A stretch of 27,359 nt of DNA, from positions 1-27,359 of the IMG/VR virus record IMGVR_UViG_3300030102_001340; one strand, written 5' to 3'. Shown here piece after piece: positions 100 to 2,460 of this stretch. Position 1 is the first letter of the stretch. Every line of letters begins with the position of its first letter. Both the position numbers and the translations under genes were made by a program. The notes under the pieces are model-generated. The model saw only the letters and a program-made list of their open reading frames with translations. It was not told the DNA's origin and did no database searches. This DNA comes from a virus.

Positions 100-113
100 G
101 CCGCTTATGCGGC
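100..113 (-). repeat. Stop-codon hairpin 1 (GCCGC-ATAA-GCGGC)
   Basis: A perfect 5-bp GC stem closes a 4-nt loop that holds the TAA stop of the 76-residue gene. The upstream arm codes for Ala-Ala, giving the C-terminal end NEAA. The Shine-Dalgarno AAGGAG of the next gene begins two bases past the hairpin. No U-tract follows, so it is not an intrinsic terminator. It belongs to a family with 353-368 and 888-901. Confidence 0.75.
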
Positions 114-335
114 TTCATTTTGTTTAGCTAAGCACCGCTTGCAATCTGCTGCCCAGATGCTGTCGCCTTCAATTTCGTAGGCGTCTGCTTCTGAAGGAAC
201 TTGTCTACCGCAAAGCGTAGTCTTGCCGTCATCACTCACTAGATGAGTTTTGGATAAAGATCCAAGATGGTCATAGTAGGGCGCAACCCATTTCGCCCAG
301 CGTATTGCTTCATCAGCGTGTGCGATATCGTTCAT
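105..335 (-). CDS. Small putative zinc-binding protein (76 aa)
   Basis: The protein has a His followed by Cys residues: KTHLVSDDGKTTLCGRQVP, then ADCKRCLA near the C-terminus. This H-x(n)-CG-x(n)-C-x2-C pattern fits small treble-clef or ribbon zinc-binding proteins of phages and actinobacteria, from memory of such families and not from a search. The N-terminal 40 residues are aromatic-rich (AIRWAKWVAPYYDH). It ends in NEAA, an ending shared with two unrelated neighbours, and the stop codon lies in a hairpin loop. The start was placed at the second ATG of an ATGATG doublet (335) because GGAG is then 6 nt away. The function is unknown; nucleic-acid binding or an anti-host role is possible. Confidence 0.7.
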   Translation of the reverse strand: MNDIAHADEAIRWAKWVAPYYDHLGSLSKTHLVSDDGKTTLCGRQVPSEADAYEIEGDSIWAADCKRCLAKQNEAA

Positions 336-352
336 CATCTTCTCCTAGTTAG

Positions 353-368
353 GGCCGCTTACGCGGCC
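353..368 (-). repeat. Stop-codon hairpin 2 (GGCCGC-GTAA-GCGGCC)
   Basis: A perfect 6-bp stem closes a GTAA loop. In RNA this is GUAA, a GNRA-type tetraloop, and its UAA is the stop codon of the 79-residue gene. The arm codes for Ala-Ala (protein end TIEAA). GGAG of the next gene lies about 7 nt downstream. No U-tract follows. Confidence 0.8.
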
Positions 369-598
369 TCTATTGTTTTGGCGAGGTTGCCCTTCTGGGT
401 ATAAATTAAAACTCGCTTACCTCGAGCTGGACCACACGCAGTATCGAATGCGTAAATCATTGCGTCTTCGACAGCGTGTTTCTTTAAGTCGCTATGGCCT
501 AACCATTCCCAAGAATCTCGCTCCACGTTGTCGCCCTTAATCTCCCAATATCGGTACTCGCGATTCCAAGTTACTTTGATGTCGTTCCAGATTTTCAT
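359..598 (-). CDS. Small hypothetical protein behind promoter/leader A (79 aa)
   Basis: The protein starts MKIWNDIKVTWNREYRYWE. It is rich in Trp, Tyr and charged residues, has no membrane segment, and is not recognised. An open frame continues upstream to 700, but 601-689 aligns without gaps to the non-coding leader at 1642-1730, so the upstream codons are promoter sequence and ATG 598 is preferred. GGAG is 11 nt from this ATG. An ATG at the usual distance instead reads ATG-ACG-TAA, and that stop overlaps the real start as TAATG. The protein ends in TIEAA with the stop inside hairpin 353-368. It is the first gene of the second transcription unit of the accessory run. Confidence 0.7.
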   Translation of the reverse strand: MKIWNDIKVTWNREYRYWEIKGDNVERDSWEWLGHSDLKKHAVEDAMIYAFDTACGPARGKRVLIYTQKGNLAKTIEAA

Positions 599-689
599 TA
601 CGTCATCTTCTCCGTTCTTGTCGAGCACCATTACCCGACAAGGAAAGTATCTCAAAAATAACCCTTGGTGTCTACAACTAGTTGCAACT
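599..689 (-). promoter_or_regulatory. Promoter/leader module A
   Basis: This 89-bp stretch aligns gap-free with 1642-1730 (66 identities by hand count). Reading leftward it holds two 10-bp units, AGTTGCAACT (689-680, itself a palindrome) and AGTTGTAGAC (679-670). A -35-like TAGACA (674-669) follows, then a 17-bp spacer and a weak -10-like GATACT (651-646). Next is a 10-bp hairpin with a 6-nt loop (642-617), AAC, and GGAG (613-610). A start predicted from the -10 would fall near 639, inside the first hairpin arm. The hairpin could therefore act as DNA or as RNA, or the -10 call may be wrong. The module begins right after the stop of the upstream gene. Confidence 0.6.
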
Positions 690-875
690 TTATGTAACAT
701 CAGGCGGGTTGATGACTCCTTCTTGAATCAAGTGTTGAGCGGTTCGACCGAACCATCCTTGCAGATTCCAAGCCAAGCCAGTTTCGACCAAGTGCTGCCA
801 CGCTTCGATTACTTGGTCTTCGTTCTCAGCCTCGACAAAACCCTCAGCTATTCCTATCGCTCGAAAATTATCCAC
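690..875 (-). CDS. Small conserved-type phage protein, GTG start (61 aa)
   Basis: Begins MDNFRAIGIAEGFVEAENED and continues with a helical segment containing WQHLVETGLAWNLQGWFGR. I recall similar AIGIAEGF...AWQ.L..TGLAW.LQGWFGR proteins among phage small genes, but know no function for them. An in-frame ATG exists at 926 but would overlap the upstream gene by more than 30 bp. The GTG at 875 has an excellent GGAGG (885-881) 5 nt upstream, so it is the chosen start. This is the one gene of the run with neither the ATGATG start nor the Glu-Ala-Ala end. Promoter module A begins directly after its TAA. Confidence 0.75.
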   Translation of the reverse strand: MDNFRAIGIAEGFVEAENEDQVIEAWQHLVETGLAWNLQGWFGRTAQHLIQEGVINPPDVT

Positions 876-887
876 GTCTTCCTCCGA

Positions 888-901
888 GCCGCTTACGCGG
901 C
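888..901 (-). repeat. Stop-codon hairpin 3 (GCCGC-GTAA-GCGGC)
   Basis: A perfect 5-bp stem closes a GUAA (GNRA-type) loop containing the stop codon of the 157-residue gene. The arm codes for Ala-Ala (end NNGEAA). GGAGG of the following GTG-start gene is only 2 nt past the stem. No U-tract follows. The sequence GAGGCCGCGTAAGCGGC is the same as in hairpin 2 although the two genes are unrelated. Confidence 0.8.
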
Positions 902-1366
902 CTCCCCATTGTTTATGAACTCCCACTTGACCTTGGCGTTCTCAGCCAGTTTGCTTGCGGCTATGTCTTTGAGGTAAACACTCACCCAGTAAGCGTCTGT
1001 CTCAAACCAGTTATCGACCTCGCAAGACTGATACTCCCAGCACTTGATCATGTTGTAGATATCGTCGGCTCCGAGCTGGCAGCATCCGACGCCACTAATC
1101 AAGCTTTGACTGAAACCGTCTGTGCTGTACTTCAGGTTTGACAGGCATTCTTCGATAAAGATGAACTCATCGAAATCGATTGTGTTTTCGCCGTACCTTG
1201 CAACCAAGCTGTCGATGTTTGCTTGAGCAAGCAGAGCAACCAATTTTTTCGGATCGGTGTCTATCGGGCTTTTGGTCGAACAATTGTAAGCGTGATTGAA
1301 CTTGTTGTTTTGGGCGAACTTCACAATCTCAGCTATGTGGTCCGCGTTTACTAAATATGCACTCAT
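893..1366 (-). CDS. Hypothetical accessory protein with MSAYLVN start (157 aa)
   Basis: The protein begins MSAYLVNADHIAEIVKFAQ and has a Cys-rich centre (GVGCCQLGADDIYNMIKCW, then EYQSCEVDNW). Proteins starting MSAY(L/I)V and containing CxEYQSCE occur in phages, plasmids and cyanobacteria as an uncharacterised group; this is from memory. Its mix of helices with conserved Tyr, Cys and Trp suggests a small globular cytosolic protein. The start is the second ATG of the doublet 1369/1366, 7 nt from AGGA. Codons upstream of it read through a region with three hairpins and are unlikely to be coding. The protein ends in NNGEAA with the stop in hairpin 888-901. Function unknown. Confidence 0.75.
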   Translation of the reverse strand: MSAYLVNADHIAEIVKFAQNNKFNHAYNCSTKSPIDTDPKKLVALLAQANIDSLVARYGENTIDFDEFIFIEECLSNLKYSTDGFSQSLISGVGCCQLGADDIYNMIKCWEYQSCEVDNWFETDAYWVSVYLKDIAASKLAENAKVKWEFINNGEAA

Positions 1367-1443
1367 CATCTTTTCCTTAGTTGGTTTTCCAAGACGCCTT
1401 GCGGCGTTTCGGCTGGTTACCATCCAGCCTCGTCAGTTGGAGT
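1367..1443 (-). other. Structured intercistronic region with three hairpins
   Basis: The 77 nt between two small genes hold three inverted repeats in a row: GGCTGG/CCAGCC with a 7-nt loop (1411-1429), ACGCC/GGCGT with a GCAA GNRA-type loop (1394-1407), and TTGG/CCAA with an AAAA loop (1381-1392). AAGGAAAAGATGATG follows. No U-tract is present. The region probably folds as part of the polycistronic mRNA and may control processing or translation of the 157-residue protein. Confidence 0.6.
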
Positions 1444-1644
1444 TTAGATCGCCCTGACATTGTCAGGGCTGTAGAATCCTTCGGTGTCTCTGATTTCGTT
1501 GATCGCCTTGATTCTTTTTTTGGTGAAGCCCGTGATTGTTCCATACACGGGGAACCAACCGTCATCGTCTAAATTGCTAGGCGAAACGAAGTTTTTGCAG
1601 TTGAGAACCACCCTTTGCCCAATTTTGTAGTTTTGGTCTTCCAT
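1444..1644 (-). CDS. Small SH3-like-barrel candidate behind promoter/leader B (66 aa)
   Basis: The sequence MEDQNYKIGQRVVLNCKNF, then PVYGTITGFTKKRIKAI and TEGFYSPDNVRAI, alternates short beta strands with turns. From memory this resembles small phage proteins with a KOW/SH3-like barrel (G.I.GFTKKR.K...Y..P.NV). No catalytic residues are visible. The start is the second ATG (1644) of an ATGATG doublet, 6 nt from GGAG. The last codons overlap an 8-bp inverted repeat (1451-1469). The C-terminal end is VRAI. The gene is the first one behind promoter module B and precedes the structured region 1367-1443. Confidence 0.7.
   Translation of the reverse strand: MEDQNYKIGQRVVLNCKNFVSPSNLDDDGWFPVYGTITGFTKKRIKAINEIRDTEGFYSPDNVRAI
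1451..1469 (-). repeat. Inverted repeat at the end of the 66-residue gene
   Basis: GCCCTGACA-T-TGTCAGGGC on the + strand gives an 8-bp stem with a 3-nt loop. It sits 4 nt inside the stop codon. Like the three stop-codon hairpins it marks a gene end, but its sequence differs and the stop is outside the loop. No U-tract follows. Confidence 0.6.
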
Positions 1645-1743: not shown

Positions 1744-2460
1744 TTATTGGGACCAAAGCTCAGCGTTATCAATGATTCGCGCTTGGTCGTACAGCCAAAA
1801 CACTAATAGGTAGCGGTCACCAGACTCAACGGGCAGTCCTCGATGCAGGTTAGTAAAGCTTGGGAAGATCAGCGCGTGGCCGGTGGGTAACGGGTTCAGT
1901 ACCCCGTAATTGTGGAACTCAGTGCCGCCGCCTTTGTAATCGTTAGTGTTGAGCGGCACAACGACTGAGATATCGGACGAGTGATCGTGATGCCAAGCGC
2001 CCTGCTTTTTGTCTTTGATGTTGTAGTTGGCAATCTGGATCGACGCAATGTCCGCACAATTACGCTGATATAAGGCCCAAAATATCGGATTCAGGACGTT
2101 TTGCACGACAAACCACATAGACCTATACAGTTCTGGAACATGCTCTCTTAGGACGATTTCAGGGATCTGACGCAGCACATCCTCTTGGTCATTCGGCTCA
2201 AACGGTATTTCTTTTTTCATGTGGTCGATCTCTTCTACCAACATTTTGCAGAACTGCCGGCGAAAGAGCGGAACCTTGAACACGCCATCGAAGCTTTTCT
2301 TGACGTGGTCCATCACCGGCAGTCGGCGCAGATCCTCACGTCCCTGCTGCGCGCGGTATCTCGCAATCTCAGGCAGTGTCTCTTGAACCGACGTGTACAA
2401 CGGTTGGTTGACCATCCAATGACTTTGAATTGAAAGCATGTAATTTTTGAGCTGATACAT
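1744..2460 (-). CDS. 2-oxoglutarate/Fe(II)-dependent oxygenase
   Basis: A 238-residue protein of the prolyl-hydroxylase-like 2OG-Fe(II) superfamily. It would couple 2-oxoglutarate decarboxylation to hydroxylation of an unknown substrate. The iron ligands are visible: H157-x-D159 in GAWHHDHSSDIS and H206 in FPSFTNLHRGLPV. R216 in GDRYLLVFWL is the expected 2OG carboxylate anchor. The strand motif YKGGGTEF (175-182) and GHALIFPSF (194-202) are typical of the double-stranded beta-helix core. Such enzymes are common in aquatic phages, and their targets are mostly unknown. Its start faces the RHH gene across 61 bp. No clear Shine-Dalgarno or leftward promoter was seen. Promoter module B begins at its stop. 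Confidence 0.85.
   Translation of the reverse strand: MYQLKNYMLSIQSHWMVNQPLYTSVQETLPEIARYRAQQGREDLRRLPVMDHVKKSFDGVFKVPLFRRQFCKMLVEEIDHMKKEIPFEPNDQEDVLRQIPEIVLREHVPELYRSMWFVVQNVLNPIFWALYQRNCADIASIQIANYNIKDKKQGAWHHDHSSDISVVVPLNTNDYKGGGTEFHNYGVLNPLPTGHALIFPSFTNLHRGLPVESGDRYLLVFWLYDQARIIDNAELWSQ

Follow-up and report, generated by a model that had tools for sequence, protein, structure and literature searches.

What could lead three unrelated small genes of one phage to end alike, each with its stop codon lodged in a GC-rich hairpin loop? The genes lie in a virus record of 27,359 bases, the whole of which is referred to here as the window; its middle and right part encodes the portal protein together with genes for head and tail, and a run of small genes, read leftward, occupies its left end. 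The original prediction saw in the hairpin a reusable punctuation cassette that ends one gene and starts the next, and allowed it a possible part in mRNA processing, stability, or translational re-initiation. From the sequence comparisons described below, the hairpin may be regarded, with a probability of about 0.6, as an RNA-level intercistronic punctuation mark which would end and insulate small operon genes, and whose positions would coincide with points of gene swapping.

Stop-in-loop hairpins and small genes of the window

The features at the left end of the window are as follows.

100..113, minus strand: stop-in-loop hairpin 1, GCCGC-ATAA-GCGGC; its TAA (105-107) ends the gene 105-338
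353..368, minus strand: stop-in-loop hairpin 2, GGCCGC-GTAA-GCGGCC; its TAA (359-361) ends the gene 359-700
887..902, minus strand: stop-in-loop hairpin 3, GGCCGC-GTAA-GCGGCU with an outer G-U pair, core GCCGC-GTAA-GCGGC at 888-901; its TAA (893-895) ends the gene 893-1423
105..338, minus strand: P0001, small gene of 77 aa, function unassigned
359..700, minus strand: P0002, small gene, ORF of 113 aa
690..875, minus strand: P0004, phrog_3908 / DUF7417, with a GTG start 11-12 nt after hairpin 3
893..1423, minus strand: P0003, small gene, ORF of 176 aa
83..95, minus strand: start module GGAGAAGATGATG after hairpin 1, of a gene that runs off the contig end
333..345, minus strand: start module GGAGAAGATGATG after hairpin 2, ahead of the next small gene

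The three genes end in Glu-Ala-Ala-TAA with the TAA inside a GC stem-loop on the minus strand (100-113, 353-368, and 888-901), just as had been described. The stems are of 5-6 bp, the four-base loops are ATAA, GTAA, and GTAA, and the predicted folding energies in 24-nt windows are -9.9, -15.7, and -11.5 kcal/mol for hairpins 1, 2, and 3. The pattern GCCGCRTAAGCGGC has 3 exact matches in the whole record, which are the three hairpins and no others, and its reversed form has 0 exact matches across the 27,359 bases. With up to 3 mismatches, the 9 matches found against 4.8 expected are not unusual; hence the signal is carried by the exact copies. The next starts are ATGATG at 88, ATGATG at 338, and GTG at 875, and at all three sites a start with a Shine-Dalgarno sequence lies 11-14 nt beyond the hairpin, which bears out the predicted close spacing. 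A scan of positions 1-2600 for sigma-70-type promoters gave 3 sites against 3.1 expected, none overlapping the hairpins, and the Rfam scan of the window gave 0 matches above the curated thresholds, which a hairpin of only 14 nt may not be long enough to reach.

The proteins had been called unrelated apart from their ends, and pairwise BLASTP accordingly finds no relationship among P0001, P0002, and P0003, the C-terminal EAA being among the weak hits in one pair. PHROG and Pfam searches place none of the three in a family, and P0002 has no relative among phage records. Two of the ORFs probably begin too far upstream, as judged from the sequence: an SD-led start is found near 598 for P0002 (ORF start at 700) and near 1369 for P0003 (ORF start at 1423).

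The start module GGAGAAGATGATG occurs on the minus strand at 83-95, 333-345, 601-613, 1364-1376, and 1642-1654, ahead of small genes; three copies are exact and two have one mismatch, against 0.05 expected. It is a repeat separate from the hairpin, and its exact form is present at only 4 of the 130 hairpin junctions having a next gene. The module is reminiscent of the SAS of mycobacteriophages. The stretch 1372-1446 (minus strand), which separates P0005 from P0003, is predicted to fold into several hairpins, a GCAA tetraloop capping one of them (z -3.3), and a variant of it also follows an identical P0005 in another locus (L028/L577). A 2OG-Fe(II) oxygenase gene (phrog_61; 1744-2460, minus strand) adjoins the small-gene array.

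Base pairing across the stop codon

Viral contigs were scanned with the motif GCCGCGTAAGCGGC, with GCGGCGTAAGCCGC, in which one C-G pair is exchanged for G-C across the stop codon, and with GCCGCGTAAGCCGC, in which the same pair is broken. Each scan comprises at least 120 loci among the matches listed, so that fractions can be compared between scans and totals cannot. A site was counted as having full context when it formed the in-frame end of an ORF of at least 40 codons and was followed by a start with a Shine-Dalgarno sequence within 60 nt. Among the matches listed, 97 of the 131 distinct motif sites end such an ORF and 69 have the stop and SD context (68 with a limit of 55 nt), as compared with 40/120 sites of the swapped form and 5/124 of the broken form. 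Fisher p values against the broken form are 1.5e-19 for the motif and 1.3e-9 for the swapped form in these listed matches, and they overstate independence because the sequences are related. Conservation of sequence alone is thereby rejected, the swapped arm retaining its context (40/120) where the broken arm does not (5/124). Some contigs carry several copies of the motif, for example five in L110 and three in L065. Eight copies of GCCGCGTAAGCCGC lie within about 210 bases of one locus (L495, 1754-1965).

A sample of 46 records was selected for protein relationship, with no regard to the motif; four contigs among them recur in the motif scan. The pattern GCNGCNTAAGCNGC, which leaves the stem and loop positions free, has 20 matches in 12 of these records; all 20 are paired (14 C-G, 6 G-C) and none is unpaired, and the reversed pattern has 1 match. 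The loops are GTAA in 16 and ATAA in 4, with a purine first in 20/20, a preference that could partly be codon choice. No match was found in the other 34 records, which may be incomplete. Of 447 junctions in portal relatives, 6 have a hairpin with a 4-nt loop at the offset that places the stop in the loop, as compared with 0-2 for any other offset; most junctions of these phages thus lack the hairpin. After removal of the query sites, the loci chosen by the motif and by the swapped form show no stop-in-loop peak (2/784 and 4/836 junctions, with at most 5 at other offsets).

The original prediction had named, as a test, whether the motif exceeds what Ala-Ala codon use would give at gene ends, and it passes. 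When ORF ends of the portal-chosen set carry GCCGC or GCGGC before the stop, the exact complement follows in 8/26, and either 5-mer stands after the stop in 17/4165 of the other ends. Likewise, the complement follows such ends in 7/9 cases in a second protein-chosen set (2/818 for other ends) and in 37/63 in a third set, enriched for one family (10/1887). Ends with GCTGC or GCAGC, over the three protein-chosen sets, have the exact complement after the stop in 0/39. The pairing does not extend to a general stem of any sequence, as beyond GCCGC/GCGGC (16 sites) there are 2 stop-in-loop stems with a downstream start among 2710 ORF ends. A scan with the loop left free (GAGGCCGCNNNNGCGGCC) is mildly informative: GTAA is found in 7/80 matches listed, all in loci known from other scans. 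In 110 further loci no loop is dominant (ATAA in 3/113), and these matches are presumably chance in GC-rich viruses. As compared across these contigs, the location of the stop in the loop and the selection for pairing both stand out; base pairing appears to be the conserved feature, and the RNA-structure part of the reading is well supported.

Retention of the hairpin ahead of a nearby cistron

By its own terms, the original prediction would be refuted if related genomes carried the same genes lacking the hairpin. Such homologues do exist: L623, L624, and L627 for P0001 (54% identical), and L322 (85%) and L323 (74%) for P0003, the hairpin being present in the P0003 homologue L321 (89%). In the one gene family followed in this respect, named A1, absences largely go with a changed context. 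Three hairpin-ended members were aligned and the best 80 of 157 relatives were taken by protein; one is truncated, and the other 79 give 55 distinct gene ends. At 23/55 ends the stem is perfect, its 5 bp enclosing a four-base loop that contains the stop, and in the family both arm forms (C-G and G-C) are present. Some other ends remain paired in variant form, such as GGTCGC-GTAA-GCGATT, where C-G has become U-A, and GGCCG-CATAG-CGGCC, where the register has shifted by one base with the stop still in the loop.

With at least 5 pairs taken as a hairpin, G-U pairs and register shift being allowed, the hairpin is present at 19/21 ends that have an SD-led start within 35 nt, at 6/15 with an intrinsic terminator within 45 nt, and at 4/19 of other kinds (19/21 vs 6/15, p 0.0024; vs all remaining ends, p 1.5e-5). 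These counts indicate that the hairpin is kept mainly where the next cistron is close. In nine terminator-followed ends lacking the hairpin, the coding arm is still GCCGC and the post-stop arm is altered or shortened. Stems with at least 5 contiguous pairs occur at 27/55 ends, as compared with 16.9 on average and 22 at most when the post-stop sides were shuffled 2000 times; slid pairings reach 0.6-0.8 at some single positions, because the arms are GC repeats. The A1 protein (L322, 3066-3899, and relatives) has no Pfam match, and its C-terminus reads DDDKFGF.KRPTKA followed by a short tail. Distant relatives are found in 472 phage records, Klebsiella and Microbacterium phages included; in 27 of these records the similarity spans 80% or more of the length.

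Proposed role and competing RNA-level explanations

In the proposed mechanism, the last two Ala codons would pair in the mRNA with the first five or six post-stop bases, and R-UAA (GUAA, more rarely AUAA) would form the four-base loop. A ribosome arriving at the stop would have to melt the stem, and after its departure the stem would refold between the finished cistron and the next Shine-Dalgarno sequence. The refolded stem would then shut the upstream coding RNA off from the new start site, and it could give the upstream cistron a protected 3' boundary. Modelled openness of the SD and start over 110 sites falls from 0.53 in the natural sequence to 0.48 when the hairpin pairs are penalised; the hairpin raises it at 49/110 sites and lowers it at 24, a small and mixed effect.

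Precedents from E. coli make both a termination or insulation role and a stability role plausible. In the parts of these sources that were available, structure before UAA in UAA-terminated genes is linked to clean termination (PMC4619774), hairpins such as that of galE block exonucleases and so stabilise 3' ends (PMC9239205), REPs can block exonucleases and, if no more than 15 nt from a stop, cause ribosomes to stall (PMC12306157), and terminators close to a stop are repressed by nearby ribosomes (PMC4824070). Both roles plausibly fit the comparative data, which do not separate them.

It is possible, though doubtful, that the hairpin is simply a 3' stability barrier, stopping 3'-to-5' exonucleases after cleavage or after Rho termination in the next gene, so that each gene has its own stable mRNA end. 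The galE and REP precedents favour this, as do the predicted stability of the short stems and the relaxation of the A1 hairpin where a terminator lies within 45 nt; the loss beside a terminator would fit 3' stability as well as insulation. Stability alone leaves unexplained why the stop should be part of the loop when it could precede the stem. A role in termination fidelity, where the stem would slow the ribosome before UAA, improve release, and prevent read-through into the next gene, is unlikely as the whole account. It agrees with the E. coli link between structure and clean termination and with A1 stop usage, TAA being found at 21/23 perfect hairpin ends and 12/32 others. However, UAA is also required for a GUAA loop, and fidelity does not explain why the post-stop arm is kept mainly when a gene follows closely.

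Intrinsic terminators and antisense tails

A terminator-like origin was weighed on both strands. In agreement with the claim that the hairpins lack a U-tract and are not intrinsic terminators, no T tract follows on the gene strand at any of the 3 window sites, and elsewhere a sense T tail is found at 1/110 internal hairpin sites. That the hairpin is a remnant or antisense intrinsic terminator is improbable. On the sense side, its support comes from the T tracts on some copies (9/212 sites overall, e.g. L027, and also L133, L146, and L240). On the antisense side, 2 of the 3 window hairpins score as terminator-like on the opposite strand only, and a T-rich antisense tail is present at 30/110 internal sites vs 10/110 control positions. 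Yet it is absent at 80/110, and the repression of terminators near stops by ribosomes in E. coli, as far as that source was available, also speaks against this explanation. An antisense-terminator role is possible for a minority of the hairpins. Three gene ends, in L133, L146, and L240, carry GCGGC-TTAG-GCCGC and then eight T, and resemble one another farther downstream; this is a terminator whose loop contains the stop and which is apparently common to different genes.

Since some copies are followed by a T tract or by a distinct terminator, the hairpin does not strictly end one gene and start the next. The predicted punctuation cassette thus holds as regards its reuse, the element recurring in many viral contigs between unrelated genes, and has to be loosened as regards the obligatory start.

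Turnover of neighbouring genes

Homologous upstream gene pairs were compared for the gene that follows, the controls being matched junctions that lack the hairpin but lie no more than 4 kb from one. The downstream gene is homologous in 2/30 hairpin-junction pairs vs 14/31 matched pairs (p 0.001), in loci of which many were chosen for carrying the motif and in pairs that are non-independent. The test anchored on the downstream gene is weaker (3/28 hairpin vs 12/39 matched, p 0.075). In one upstream family of six, the members are followed by six different sequences, including the T tract in L027. For the window's own genes, the P0002 homologue of L328/L591 (one record, 95% identical) has the same hairpin and a different next gene, and that of P0001 in L274/L580 (one record, 50%) has a swapped-arm hairpin with an SD and a different next gene. 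In L240, a P0001 homologue (52%) ends in a swapped-arm stop-in-loop hairpin, followed by eight T. P0004 is preceded by P0003 in the window and by an A1-family gene in L322, with a stop-in-loop hairpin at both junctions. From this sequence-level turnover of neighbours, hairpin junctions seem to coincide with gene-swapping points. Independent gene ends and starts that share a short hairpin would, we propose, make such junctions exchange points between phages.

A recombination joint with no RNA role, i.e., a repeat that merely travels with the swapped genes, is improbable: it would account for the non-homologous neighbours in 28/30 hairpin pairs and for the six different sequences after one family, but it predicts a single sequence, yet C-G and G-C forms both occur, even within the A1 family, and the broken form loses its context. 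Moreover, the A1 post-stop arm decays before terminators while the coding arm stays. Chance arising from Ala-Ala C-termini (e.g. a degron-like AA tail) and GC-rich codons is barely credible, for although Ala-Ala before the stop follows from the core sequence itself, the 3' arm lies beyond the stop and forms the exact complement far more often than background would give (0/39 for GCTGC/GCAGC), and the swapped- and broken-arm scans and complement counts contradict it.

The punctuation reading can tentatively be carried further. The hairpin might mark a gene-cassette system having no dedicated recombinase, in which the stop-codon loop makes small genes translationally self-contained and also serves as the swap joint. 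If one element is both RNA mark and joint, selection for the RNA mark would also build the exchange site.

Distribution among phages and hosts

Carriers of stop-in-loop hairpins are mostly uncultured phages. Relatives of the portal protein are encoded in at least 598 viral stretches, and its best match among phage records is that of pelagiphage HTVC023P (48.5% over 85%); megablast of window bases 1-25000 against phage records gave no match. Seven isolate stretches were examined: the complete C72C1 (OQ984150), 21 kb from Alteromonas phage R7M, and 50 kb in each of the other five. Among them the GCCGC form is present only in C72C1, where the end of the next gene forms a GGGGC-ATAA-GCCCC stem. 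In HTVC027P a single weaker candidate hairpin lies in a 39-codon frame, and no stop-in-loop hairpin was found in the stretches of HTVC023P, DSL-LC04, and R7M. In the roseophages CRP-902 (L443, ~13719) and CRP-901 (L678, ~13237), a hairpin resembling an intrinsic terminator, with GGGC as its stem, has the stop in its loop. When GGAGG was required to begin exactly two bases past the hairpin, bacterial and archaeal contigs totalling 257 billion bases had the module at 10 loci, which gives no sign of a common host feature; a motif common in host genomes is unlikely, as judged at this exact two-base spacing.

Significance and comparison with known systems

A stop codon that is itself the tetraloop would be a compact, testable RNA rule for gene separation in tightly packed phage operons. 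It may serve as a marker for locating swappable small accessory genes in uncultured phages, and it would supply a ready-made intercistronic insulator part for operon design. A search of the open literature, with most subscription papers and bioRxiv outside its scope, returned no account of stop-in-loop hairpins as phage gene punctuation, and the portions seen of PMC3014915, PMC8355165, and PMC2864571 contain no such case.

Among known elements, the PeSL (promoter early stem-loop) of T4 is a stem-loop joined to an early promoter. T4-type PeSLs stand between phage genes and, in the part of the source available, are linked with gene shuffling (PMC4503421). The present hairpin is like them in its location at gene-shuffling points (neighbour conservation of 2/30 vs 14/31, and 3/28 vs 12/39 when anchored downstream) and unlike them in that sigma-70-type promoters do not exceed chance, the loop is formed by the stop codon, and the next element downstream is an SD. 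In Cluster K mycobacteriophages, as far as the source was seen, SAS/ESAS are repeated motifs before many unrelated gene starts, with a suspected role in translation; about half of the SAS motifs have an inverted repeat just upstream, and the ESAS are 17-bp imperfect inverted repeats with a spacer of mostly 4-13 bp, next to the 13-bp SAS and linked to the downstream start (PMC3203893). Here too a repeated element lies between unrelated genes near the next start, whereas by stem size the hairpin (5-6 bp, with a 4-base loop) differs from ESAS, and it holds the upstream stop. REP and galE hairpins are likewise near gene ends inside operons, but they are described from bacterial chromosomes, downstream of the stop, while in the present case the 5' arm belongs to the coding sequence and the stop falls within the loop. 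With stop-overlapping intrinsic terminators the resemblance lies in the same hairpin bearing a T tract at the L027, L133, L146, and L240 ends, and the difference in the internal copies, which have no sense T tract (1/110 excepted). As compared from the parts of those sources available, none of PeSL, ESAS, and REP has a stop codon for its loop or base-pairs across the end of the coding sequence. The hairpin resembles the T4 PeSLs, the mycobacteriophage ESAS, and the REP hairpins, and matches none of them.
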